NCBI RefSeq assembly: GCF_014334335.1
Contig: NZ_JACSEU010000001.1
Location: 310,001-374,000, forward strand
DNA: 64,000 bases
DNA from: Treponema sp. Marseille-Q3903
GTDB lineage: Bacteria > Spirochaetota > Spirochaetia > Treponematales > Treponemataceae
Direction: 5' to 3'
Position 1 is the stretch's first letter; every line of letters begins with the position of its first letter. A program made the position numbers and the translations under genes. Under the pieces are notes generated by a model, which saw only the letters and a list, made by a program, of their open reading frames with translations, had not been told where the DNA came from and did not search any database. Below are positions 3,400 to 28,345 of the stretch, piece by piece.

Positions 3400-4737
3400 A
3401 TGAAAGAAAATACTTTAAATATGACAGAGGGAAACCCTGTCCGTTTGATTCTTATATTTTCAGTTCCAATGCTTGTTGGGAATATTTTTCAGCAATTGTA
3501 CAATCTTGCAGATTCGGTTATTGTTGGGCAGCTCATTGGCGCAGACGCTTTGGCTGCGATTGGCTCGACTGGTTCTATCACTTTCTTCTTTTTTGCGATT
3601 TGCAATGGGTTTGGTGCCGGAGGAGGAATTGTCGCTTCTCAATCTTTTGGAGAAGGGGATAAAGAAAAGGTAAAAAATTGCATAGCAAACGTTGCGTATC
3701 TTATGTTTTTAGTTCCTGCTGTAATCGGAACTATCGCCTTTTTTACAGCAGGTCAGATTCTTGTTCTTTTGAACACTCCTGAATCTATTTTGCCGGTCGC
3801 AAAAAGTTATATGCGGATTATGTGTTTAAGCATTATTTTTGTATCTTTATACAATTTTGTTTCATCTATGTTACGTGCGATTGGAGATTCGAAAACGCCT
3901 CTTTATTTTTTGATATTTTCTTGCTTTTTGAATGTCGGGCTTGATATTCTTTTTGTCCTTTATTTTAACATGGGCGTTTTTGGCGCAGGAGTTGCAACTT
4001 TGATTTCGCAGCTTATTTCCGGGGCACTTTGCCTGATTTATGCTATAAAATCAAATTCGTACTTTAAACTTAGTCGCCAAAACTTGAGGGTAAACTTCCT
4101 TTTAATGTGGAAATGTATAAAAATTGGAATCCCTCTTTCGCTCCAGTTTTCTCTGATTGCGATTTCGTGTATGGCGTTGCAACGCGTAGTTAACTCATTT
4201 GGAGCGGTTGCTGTTGCCGCTTTTGCAGCTACAAGCCGTGTAGAGCAGATTATTCACATGCCTTATCAGACATTGAGCGCCGCTCTTTCAACTTATTGTG
4301 GGCAAAATTTTGGTGCAAAAAAATATGACAGAATGATAAACGGCTATAGAAAAGCAATGTTGATGATGGCGACTTTTACGATTTGTATGATTCCTGTTGT
4401 TCAGATTTTCGGGCATGGAATTATACGAATGTTTGTAAAAGAAACTTCTGTTATCGAAATGGGAGCGAACGCTATCAAGATAACGAGCCTGTTTTATATA
4501 TTTCTTGGAATGATTTACACAGTTCGTGGCATTTTAAACGGCATGGGAGATTCTTTTTTTGCGATGTTCAACGGTATTGTCGAAGTGATTGGACGCTTTA
4601 CTGTGCCATTTATTTTGGTTGCAATTCCTGTAATTGGTGTTTGGGGAATATGGTGGTCTCTCGGGTTGGTATGGTTTATGGCTGGAACGACGGCATGGTG
4701 GCGATATCTGTATATGAAAAAAAAGATACTTAAATAA
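3400..4737 (+). CDS. MATE family multidrug efflux transporter
   Basis: About 445 residues with twelve predicted membrane helices. The N-terminus reads MKENTLNMTEGNP followed by IFSVPMLVGNIFQQLYNLAD, the usual beginning of NorM/DinF-type MATE proteins, with two MatE repeats (about residues 15-175 and 235-395). The family exports cationic drugs and metabolites using Na+ or H+ gradients. An upstream in-frame ATG at 3325 would add 25 residues that do not look like the family. The beginning of the family homology and a TATAAT at 3385-3390 both support ATG 3400. The substrate is unknown. It is a single gene followed by 220 bases without a gene. Confidence 0.9.
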   Translation: MKENTLNMTEGNPVRLILIFSVPMLVGNIFQQLYNLADSVIVGQLIGADALAAIGSTGSITFFFFAICNGFGAGGGIVASQSFGEGDKEKVKNCIANVAYLMFLVPAVIGTIAFFTAGQILVLLNTPESILPVAKSYMRIMCLSIIFVSLYNFVSSMLRAIGDSKTPLYFLIFSCFLNVGLDILFVLYFNMGVFGAGVATLISQLISGALCLIYAIKSNSYFKLSRQNLRVNFLLMWKCIKIGIPLSLQFSLIAISCMALQRVVNSFGAVAVAAFAATSRVEQIIHMPYQTLSAALSTYCGQNFGAKKYDRMINGYRKAMLMMATFTICMIPVVQIFGHGIIRMFVKETSVIEMGANAIKITSLFYIFLGMIYTVRGILNGMGDSFFAMFNGIVEVIGRFTVPFILVAIPVIGVWGIWWSLGLVWFMAGTTAWWRYLYMKKKILK

Positions 4738-6731: not shown

Positions 6732-6857
6732 AAAGGAGGTGTGCTAAAAATTACTTCCGTGTAATTTTTAGCACTAAAGTTTATTCGTGCGTTGCACTTC
6801 ATAAACTTTGATACAGCGCCTCCATGCGCTGCCGCTAACGCGGTGTTTTTATAGGAG
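6732..6857 (+). repeat. structured leader element 1, flanked by AGGAG repeats
   Basis: The element lies between two AGGAG copies (6734-6738 and 6853-6857). It opens with AAAGGAGGTGTGCTAAAAA and closes with GTTTTTATAGGAG; both ends are shared with the element at 27433-27655. Inside are a perfect 14-bp stem (6741-6754 with 6761-6774), a 9-bp stem (6776-6784 with 6801-6809) enclosing GTGC/GCAC, a CAGCGC/GCGCTG hairpin (6814-6819 with 6826-6831) and CCGC/GCGG (6832-6835 with 6840-6843) followed by TGTTTTT. The second AGGAG serves as the Shine-Dalgarno sequence of the ECF S component. It could be a regulatory RNA, an attenuator or a small mobile insertion. Confidence 0.6.
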
Positions 6858-6862
6858 TTTTT

Positions 6863-7471
6863 ATGGAACAAACACAAGTACAGTCAGGCGGGAAAAAACG
6901 CCTTGTGTTAAAGGATTTGGTTAATATCGGTATTTTCTCCGTTATTTATTTTGCCGGACTTTTCATCGTCGGCATGCCGTTCGGCTTTTTAGTAGTAACG
7001 TATTTGTTTTTCCCCTTTGCGGCAAGTTTGCTTTTGGGTATCGTTGCCTTGTTCTTTTTGGCTAAAACGCCGAAGCCCTTTGCACTGTTTATCTTTGCGG
7101 CCATTCCGGGCTGCCTTATGACACTGATGGGGCACACGCCGGTGGTAGCGGTTCACTCGCTTATCGTTGCAGCACTTGCAGAACTGGTACGCAAAGCAAT
7201 CGGCTATAAAACCGTCAAGGGGAGCATTGTAGGCTATGCGCTTATGTCTCTGGGGCTGTGCGGTGCTTTTTGGCAGATTTATATCTTAAAAGATCAATAC
7301 TATGCCCTGACCGAAAAGATGTTAGGAGCCGAATACGCAACGCAGCTTGTCAGCCTTCCGATATGGATTATGCCGCTGCTATACGCAAGCACTTTTATAG
7401 GCGGTCTTCTCGGCGGTTTTTTGGGCGCCAAGGTGTTAAAAAAGCATTTTGTGAAAGCGGGGCTGGTGTAA
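6863..7471 (+). CDS. ECF transporter S component, Trep_Strep/MptD-type family
   Basis: A 202-residue hydrophobic protein with about five or six membrane helices and a basic C-terminal segment (GAKVLKKHFVKAG). It corresponds to the Trep_Strep family known from Treponema and Streptococcus, the substrate-binding S component of an energy-coupling-factor importer. T and A components follow directly. The substrate is not established; neighbourhood with siderophore-type ABC proteins suggests a metal chelate or tetrapyrrole. Start ATG 6863 has AGGAG at 6853-6857. This gene, the next one and the first 300 bases of the ATPase gene are clearly richer in G+C than their neighbours. Confidence 0.82.
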   Translation: MEQTQVQSGGKKRLVLKDLVNIGIFSVIYFAGLFIVGMPFGFLVVTYLFFPFAASLLLGIVALFFLAKTPKPFALFIFAAIPGCLMTLMGHTPVVAVHSLIVAALAELVRKAIGYKTVKGSIVGYALMSLGLCGAFWQIYILKDQYYALTEKMLGAEYATQLVSLPIWIMPLLYASTFIGGLLGGFLGAKVLKKHFVKAGLV

Positions 7472-27372: not shown

Positions 27373-27432
27373 GCCTTTAATACGGCGAAGTCGCAGGTTT
27401 GAGCGTAACGAGCCTCTACTTGACGTATTTAG

Positions 27433-27655
27433 AAAGGAGGTGTGATAAAAAGTGTCGTCTGAAATATCGCCGATACTTTTTATCTCGAGTTTGCCTGGAT
27501 GTTTGCAGAAGACGTGTATACGTGTCGTTTCGATAAAAATCAAATGAATACGATACGCTTTATTTTGCAAACTCGACTATTGAACGTGTGCGCTCTTGCG
27601 CACGGCTAAAAACTTTTTCGGAAATTGCTATTTCCTGCAAAAGTTTTTATAGGAG
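27433..27655 (+). repeat. structured leader element 2, flanked by AGGAG repeats
   Basis: AGGAG at 27435-27439 and 27651-27655 enclose 211 bases. The ends, AAAGGAGGTGTGATAAAAA and GTTTTTATAGGAG, match element 1 (6732-6857). Stems: 14 bp with one G-U pair (27444-27457 with 27471-27484), 10 bp (27485-27494 with 27567-27576) around an inner arm, GTGCGC/GCGCAC (27588-27593 with 27598-27603) and an 11-bp stem (27607-27617 with 27639-27649) capped by GGAAAT/ATTTCC. Order and size of the first stems agree with element 1 although the bases differ. The last AGGAG is the Shine-Dalgarno sequence of the cupin gene. Confidence 0.6.
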
Positions 27656-27661
27656 AATAGA

Positions 27662-28345
27662 ATGTTTTTTTCAAAACTCCCCATTGGAGAAGTTTTTAAT
27701 TTGTGCGACTTTATTGCGGTAAAGCCGCAGATGGTGATAAGTAAAAATGTCTGCGCGCAATCATATTTTGATATGACTCTCTATTCTTTTGGAGCCGGTG
27801 AAAGCATCACATGGCAGGTAATTCCCGGCGATGTTTTGCTTCTCGTCCTTGAAGGCGAAGTTTTTCTAGAAGTCAAGCAAAGCGGCATTGCAAAAGGAGC
27901 TTCTGCAATTGCAGGAAAATGTCTTTTTGTAAAAGGCGGGAACGAGTTTCAGATAAGCGGAAATAAACCATACAAGATGGCTTTTATGGTTGTAAATAAA
28001 TTTGGAGGAAAGGATATGTTTATTAAAAATTTTGAACAAGGAAAGGTCGTTACTCTCAAAGACCAAATTGACGTTGAAAGTGGAACAATTGCAAGCAAAA
28101 CTCTTGTAAACAGCGAGGCTATGACAATGACGATTTTTGCGTTTGATGCAGGACAAGGAGTTAGCACACATTCAGCTTCGGGAGATGCTTTTGTCTGCTG
28201 TCTTGAAGGTAAAGCAGAAATTGAATTGAGCGGTGAAAAATTGACAATTAATGCGGGAGAGGCGTTGATCATGCCTGCAAATGCTCCTCACGCAGTAAAA
28301 GCAATTGAACCATACAAGATGCTGCTTACAGTAGTAAAGAAATAG
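27662..28345 (+). CDS. double-cupin domain protein
   Basis: A 227-residue cytoplasmic protein with two cupin beta-barrels. The second has the clearer motif: FDAGQGVSTHSASGDAFVCCLEGKAEI then ALIMPANAPHAV (about 158-215), with histidines that could bind a metal. The first half (about 40-110) lacks most metal ligands and may be structural. Such proteins range from enzymes to ligand sensors, and the activity cannot be told. The next gene, a giant acyl-CoA dehydratase activase relative, begins within ten bases of its stop, so the two are probably co-expressed. The structured leader element directly precedes it. Confidence 0.8.
   Translation: MFFSKLPIGEVFNLCDFIAVKPQMVISKNVCAQSYFDMTLYSFGAGESITWQVIPGDVLLLVLEGEVFLEVKQSGIAKGASAIAGKCLFVKGGNEFQISGNKPYKMAFMVVNKFGGKDMFIKNFEQGKVVTLKDQIDVESGTIASKTLVNSEAMTMTIFAFDAGQGVSTHSASGDAFVCCLEGKAEIELSGEKLTINAGEALIMPANAPHAVKAIEPYKMLLTVVKK

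Follow-up and report, generated by a model that had tools for sequence, protein, structure and literature searches.

Two intergenic segments in the window, i.e. the whole stretch of 64,000 nucleotides that was analysed (G000:C1:310001–374000 of a 2.51 Mb treponeme genome that is 98.66% complete, here called the own genome), are very probably small non-autonomous mobile DNA elements of treponemes that are found at the GGAG of Shine-Dalgarno sequences and may be joined there in trans by way of their end hairpins. Their mobile nature, with a putative insertion at a Shine-Dalgarno GGAG that leaves a GGAG near the start codon, is strongly supported. The element at 6735–6857 belongs to a family of about 120 nt termed SHORT and that at 27436–27655 to a family of about 217 nt termed LONG. 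Each spans a GGAG to the next GGAG, and a start codon is found just 3′ of the second one. The boundaries of SHORT and LONG are approximate, and all end coordinates are to be read in this way. The features are as follows.

6735–6738, + strand: left GGAG of SHORT, taken as the original Shine-Dalgarno sequence (from the sequence, the left GGAG being family-wide)
6739–6853, + strand: interior of SHORT (TD-2-related), GTGTG...TTTTTATA
6741–6774, + strand: SHORT hairpin H1, 14 bp, loop TTCCGT (from the fold)
6776–6809, + strand: SHORT hairpin H2 with an inner arm
6814–6831, + strand: SHORT hairpin H3, CTCC in the loop
6832–6843, + strand: SHORT hairpin H4, CCGC-TAAC-GCGG, followed by a T run
6854–6857, + strand: right GGAG of SHORT, at the Shine-Dalgarno position for the gene at 6863
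6863–7471, + strand: gene behind SHORT, 202 aa, Pfam Trep_Strep integral membrane protein
27436–27439, + strand: left GGAG of LONG (from the sequence)
27440–27651, + strand: interior of LONG (TD-1-related), 11 genome copies of 98–100% identity
27444–27484, + strand: LONG hairpin H1, 14 bp, mostly beyond the Rfam TD-1 match
27486–27575, + strand: LONG H2, CGAGTTTGC...GCAAACTCG around a long inner arm (from the TD-1 alignment; the single-sequence fold pairs this region differently)
27588–27603, + strand: LONG H3, GTGCGC-TCTT-GCGCAC
27608–27648, + strand: LONG H4, inner part GGAAAT-TGCT-ATTTCC
27652–27655, + strand: right GGAG of LONG, at the Shine-Dalgarno position for the gene at 27662
27662–28345, + strand: gene behind LONG, 227 aa, Pfam Cupin_2 domain

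The sequence AAAGGAGGTGTGNTAAAAA is found at 6732 and 27433, which are the sole matches in the window when up to three mismatches are allowed; two or more matches were obtained in 2 of 100 shuffles. GTTTTTATAGGAG is present exactly at 6845–6857 and 27643–27655, and seven more matches in the window carry two mismatches. These exact matches confirm the end boxes and positions given in a preliminary description of this DNA, and the sequence together with the open reading frames bears out its placement of both elements directly before start codons, the ATG being at 6863 and 27662. The leaders fold better than shuffled sequences (z-scores of −4.85 and −5.79, with none of 200 shuffles equally good). 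The preliminary description had also seen a like order of stems in the two elements and had offered covarying stems as one reading. The ends and the 14-bp first hairpin are indeed common to both, but the interiors belong to two families and are not covarying versions of one another. No gene was seen inside the elements. A reading frame of six or seven codons, earlier offered as a possible leader peptide, is present in both elements but finds no support as a trait of the families: in several LONG relatives the start codon is replaced by GTACG, and in SHORT an RTG is common, yet it begins 1–2 nt past GGAGG.

A further short stretch with the look of a repeat (ACGGCGAAGTC...CTTGACGTATTT) occupies positions 27373–27430, immediately 5′ of LONG. 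To judge by eye, H2 of SHORT copies at L294 and L327 is interrupted by a relative, apparently with TATTT on both sides, and a relative is also seen before obg at L101 and L103. A long TTCG microsatellite is present just 5′ of LONG insertions in two other genomes, G119 and G108 (L081 and L067).

A search with the left box, allowing up to two mismatches, gives 23 sites, compared with 5 for the reversed pattern. In the own genome, LONG is represented by 11 full copies that are 98–100% identical and are located at unrelated loci. SHORT is found at 14 loci, where the copies are 82–90% identical to the window copy apart from one of 74% and one that is truncated; tandem arrays are present, the largest having three 121-nt units. 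An open reading frame starts directly behind the element at all 25 insertion loci (11 LONG and 14 SHORT, with each array counted once and the starts at L046, L048, L049 and L050 set by eye). The left GGAG is present at all 11 LONG loci and at 10 of the 14 SHORT loci. A Pfam search of the two window genes and six further genes of the own genome places the elements before members of the Trep_Strep, cupin, Obg, Mur-ligase, SSB, dCMP-deaminase, amino-acid-kinase and malic-enzyme families. Searches of plasmid and phage collections gave no match, and neither did a genome-contig search with the protein of the gene at 27662.

Out of 353 GGAG sites in the window, 21 are in Shine-Dalgarno position and 8 more are non-coding, with genes called roughly from open reading frames, so that the finding of all 25 insertions at Shine-Dalgarno sequences is mostly explained by loss of insertions into coding sequence. 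The residual bias toward Shine-Dalgarno sites amounts to 0.72 to the 25th power, or 3e-4, on small numbers.

As proposed in the preliminary description, orthologous loci with and without the insert were sought, and filled and empty sites were found in relatives. Ten insertions were rejoined at the GGAG with the element removed, and the joined sequences were searched in 200 genomes of the genus. The junction between hslV and hslU, whose proteins are assigned by Pfam to the proteasome-type and AAA_2 families, is filled in G132 and empty in G107 (98% identity over 240 of 240 positions) and G142 (96%, also 240 of 240). The net gain of the filled site is one element plus one GGAG. The insertion in G132 alters the end of hslV from EEA to EEVR, and the GGAG of the next gene comes from the right end of the element. 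At a second locus G119 carries the element, in a copy that lacks one base before the GGAG, and the site is empty in G107 and G132. At a third locus (L065; G107 compared with G142) the empty site is unclean, with a target of 251 nt instead of 240. The murD-like locus of the own genome is empty in G138 at 74% identity, where the sequence is AAGG and not GGAG. A relB-like locus is filled in G108 and G048 and has unfilled homologues in G001 and G004; G108 contains both a filled and an unfilled relB-like locus, thus the comparisons with G001 and G004 may be with paralogues. The other five joined insertions (L064, L066, L068, L091 and L025) gave no aligned empty site; for L025, the dCMP-deaminase-family locus of the own genome, some of the matches listed cross the junction. 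The obg gene of the own genome is filled. Upstream sequence of 28 orthologues was read by eye for about 170 nt and the element was seen in none of them; a 29th, L111, with 1 nt upstream only, was left out.

At the empty sites the left box corresponds to the Shine-Dalgarno sequence of the uninterrupted gene. The earlier proposal, insertion of a small mobile element into Shine-Dalgarno sequences, is strongly supported by the near-identical LONG copies at unrelated loci, the 14 SHORT loci and the empty sites. The accompanying proposal of bounding and duplication by AGGAG needs correction. In the one clean case, hslV-hslU, A-GGAG stands at the empty site and G-GGAG at the right end of the filled one, so that at most GGAG is repeated and not AGGAG; a duplication at hslU could cover GGAG only. 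The right GGAG may be a duplicated target or may be borne by the element, and both fit. From its position we infer that translation would proceed from the right GGAG.

Further copies in related genomes, the search for which had also been suggested, are many. A covariance model of SHORT, built from 15 copies of the own genome, matches 120 of 196 genomes of the same genus, with up to 17 candidates scored per genome. A DNA search with LONG gives matches in 17 of 146 genomes of the genus, many of them short and partial. The H1 pattern, which includes neither end of the element, was scanned over 84,980 named species genomes and gave at least 124 distinct matches in at least 120 loci. The 80 loci listed are all from Treponema or other spirochaetes, including T. 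berlinense, T. porcinum, T. ruminis and metagenome genomes. A GGAG is found within 10 nt to the left in 107 of the 120 with flanking sequence. Enough downstream sequence is present for 111 H1 matches. In 87 of them a GGAG-like right box is followed at 3–12 nt (mode 7) by an open reading frame start, and in 17 the next feature is a further element; 2 are broken up by a different repeat, and 5 show neither outcome by script. The elements are in one orientation between the two GGAG boxes. No autonomous copy was seen: 67 of the 83 H1 matches in the 80 loci have a recognisable right end, the other 16 being accounted for by contig ends, a variant H4 or interruption (by eye), and of four wide left-right pairs in the retrieved loci, one of which was inspected, none is convincing as an autonomous copy.

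In some arrays neighbouring copies have right-end peculiarities in common. At L164, L171, L250, L286 and L295 the right GGAG of SHORT abuts a TD-1-like hairpin (TGTAAGATAAAACCGCTAAAATAGCG), which indicates that the two families stack on each other's GGAG. A SHORT copy is also located before a start codon in an IMG/VR contig (L369, about 4205–4340) among genes that we presume to be phage-structural, thus the element may enter virus-like DNA. The TD-1 right-end pattern gave no match in viral contigs.

No Rfam family matches the window at gathering scores. Below them, LONG aligns with the full TD-1 model (model positions 1–120) on the same strand at 52.8 bits (E-value about 2e-6; gathering score 64.5). 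Three of the four SHORT loci tried align with TD-2 over its whole length of 98 positions, on the strand opposite to the gene and with scores of 38.3, 31.6 and 29.0 bits (gathering score 48.7; L006 gave no match). The TD-1 match omits most of the first hairpin of LONG, and the TD-2 match omits H4 and the right end of SHORT. TD-1 (RF03155) is filed in Rfam as cis-regulatory and TD-2 (RF03162) as sRNA, both in clan CL00124. Within the family, 97 of 245 genomes have a TD-1 match, spread over 12 of 20 genera; 38 exceed the gathering score, and the 14 control genomes gave no match. Judged from these alignments, the sequences themselves are not wholly new but are sub-threshold relatives of TD-1 and TD-2. 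What appears to be new is their nature as mobile DNA and their target, the Shine-Dalgarno sequence, which they enter and restore. The families reportedly stem from a 2017 paper by Weinberg in NAR; among the literature matches listed, which did not cover that source paper, there is no description of TD-1 or TD-2 as mobile.

Two loci of the own genome exceed the TD-1 gathering score, G000:C1:721690–721815 and 2109077–2109191 (89.6 and 77.9 bits in the two loci); the former (L350) has a TGAAC-like box on both sides instead of GGAG. By eye, seven TD-1-type loci (L087, L350, L353, L354, L355, L358 and L359) have GAAC- or GGAA-like boxes and not GGAG. L087 and L359 have no close ATG, two run into another element and the rest are ambiguous or before an ATG. 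This is a weak hint of a target preference rather than of an RNA tied to translation.

Rfam treats TD-1 and TD-2 as RNAs, whereas the relatives described here behave as mobile DNA. The elements could be cis-acting regulatory RNA leaders whose hairpins work at the level of the mRNA, where they might mask the right Shine-Dalgarno sequence, and the Rfam matches, the constant position before genes and the strong folding are in keeping with such leaders. However, near-identical copies precede functionally unrelated genes, empty sites exist and all three TD-2 matches of SHORT are on the strand opposite to the gene. The stems bear on this question as well, since an RNA that is read on one strand should favour G-U over A-C. 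The stems of SHORT were counted over 95 distinct rows, aligned with a model in which G-U is allowed: 3086 pairs are Watson-Crick, 28 are G-U and 32 are A-C, and there are 77 mismatches of other kinds, some of which result from misalignment of H3. The 15 copies of the own genome have 9 G-U and 12 A-C. All four Watson-Crick pairs occur in the stems and H2 is the most variable. Compensatory changes, which also speak for an RNA, are present in 10 of 35 stem pairs; the RNAalifold covariation term is small (−0.24). The near equality of G-U and A-C indicates that the pairing of SHORT looks kept as DNA rather than as RNA read from one strand. By comparison, 15 tRNAs have 23 G-U and no A-C among the ARAGORN pairs, a biased control because ARAGORN accepts G-U. 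An unbiased stem finder gives 1:1 on the same tRNAs and 7:10 on SHORT, and thus has little power as a strand test; with LONG, this low-power finder gives G-U to A-C ratios of 21:15, of 38:17 when short stems are counted (a ratio on the side of an RNA) and of 4:6 family-wide. Template-switch correction of imperfect palindromes could also keep stems perfect without selection. A regulatory leader seems improbable. The earlier alternative of a new cis-acting RNA is weakened for SHORT by the lack of strand bias but may still hold for LONG; given the TD-1 and TD-2 relatives, it would not be wholly new.

The H1 and H3 loops of SHORT mostly read ANGGA on the opposite strand, a sequence that we assume to resemble CsrA binding sites.

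The ends of the elements, GGAG/GUGYG...AU, presumably resemble those of group II introns. A degenerate or trans-spliced intron of this kind, whose removal from the transcript would protect the gene, has in its favour the GTGTG and AT boundary letters of some copies and an H3 loop with CTCC that could pair with GGAG. In other copies, however, the end letters drift to GTACG, GTATG or ATGTG, the own genome has no reverse transcriptase match (RVT_1/PF00078), and no Rfam intron match was found in the window and five loci tried. An intron is very hard to credit. Pairing of the CTCC or ATCC of the H3 loop with the flanking GGAG was followed by eye in the 15 copies of the own genome, where ATCC loops occur with GGAG ends; with no such covariation, the pairing is only a weak lead.

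For mobile DNA at Shine-Dalgarno sequences, the following process is proposed. An enzyme acting in trans would recognise the end hairpins as DNA, either single-stranded or extruded, and would join the element at GGAG, much as happens with IS200/IS605 or REP-type elements. The GGAG at the right end would leave the gene with a ribosome-binding site, which would allow insertion before important genes to be tolerated. Tandem arrays would arise when copies insert beside each other and are amplified. No host function is needed in this explanation. By analogy, chemistry like that of IS200/IS605 or REP elements (PMC6006769, PMC8266576), with hairpin recognition and joining at GGAG in trans, is a serious possibility that falls a little short of probable. 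What speaks against it is that the own genome has no Y1, reverse transcriptase or IS110 match and that Y1 shows no association with SHORT.

SHORT and LONG share end hairpins, a short fixed target and a fixed orientation with these systems. REP/BIME sequences with their RAYT (TnpA-REP) transposases are likewise multicopy short intergenic palindromes with a tetranucleotide near the hairpin foot (PMC6006769, PMC8266576, PMC3733652). The REP tetranucleotide is GTAG or GTGG in place of GGAG, and REPs measure 20–65 nt, whereas the units here have four hairpins, two defined ends and a length of about 120 or 217 nt. IS200/IS605 elements and their non-autonomous derivatives have hairpins near both ends, a fixed orientation beside a short target and a tetranucleotide at the right end (PMC6006769). 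Here the left and right boxes are both GGAG, and no complementary guide was seen by eye at the hairpin feet. In contrast to both systems, the own genome has no Y1 match (Y1_Tnp/PF01797). The pneumococcal BOX, RUP and SPRITE repeats, and MITEs in general, are also small interspersed repeats, non-autonomous and found inserted in each other (PMC3049150); the insertions here differ in being at the Shine-Dalgarno GGAG. By eye, terminal inverted repeats, a trait of DDE-type MITEs, are absent; the ends have only ATAAAAA in common, at unequal distances from GGAG.

Y1 and IS110 enzymes were considered as mobilisers and found no support. The own genome has no match to the IS110 transposase (PF01548, DEDD) either, and over 196 genomes there is no association of Y1 with SHORT (40/80/21/55, Fisher p 0.43, the same 196 genomes being assumed for both). 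A history in which a Y1 (REP-type) transposase first spread the repeat and afterwards disappeared, many copies being fossils kept by tandem amplification and gene conversion, would fit the Y1 matches in 61 of the 196 genus genomes, the three internal stops in the Y1 of G119, the divergence of the SHORT copies and the shared right-end peculiarities of array neighbours. Against such a loss, the 11 LONG loci are near-identical in a genome without a Y1 match, and 23 of the 38 genomes with at least 10 SHORT matches have none, in addition to the missing association. This history is therefore considered unlikely, if less so than a regulatory leader.

An element that enters and restores a ribosome-binding site could precede important genes without silencing them. 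Integrative elements that restore the 3′ ends of tRNA genes follow a similar strategy. Under the mobile reading, two families that Rfam lists as RNAs would have to be seen as mobile DNA, and covarying stems would be explained without an RNA function. This reading also raises the question of the mover in a genome that has no match to the three enzyme families tested. A wider reading, tentative and rather doubtful at present, is that TD-1 and TD-2 may form one superfamily of mobile DNA that is specialised in entering and rebuilding Shine-Dalgarno sequences, is moved by a new class of enzyme and has spread through the treponeme family.
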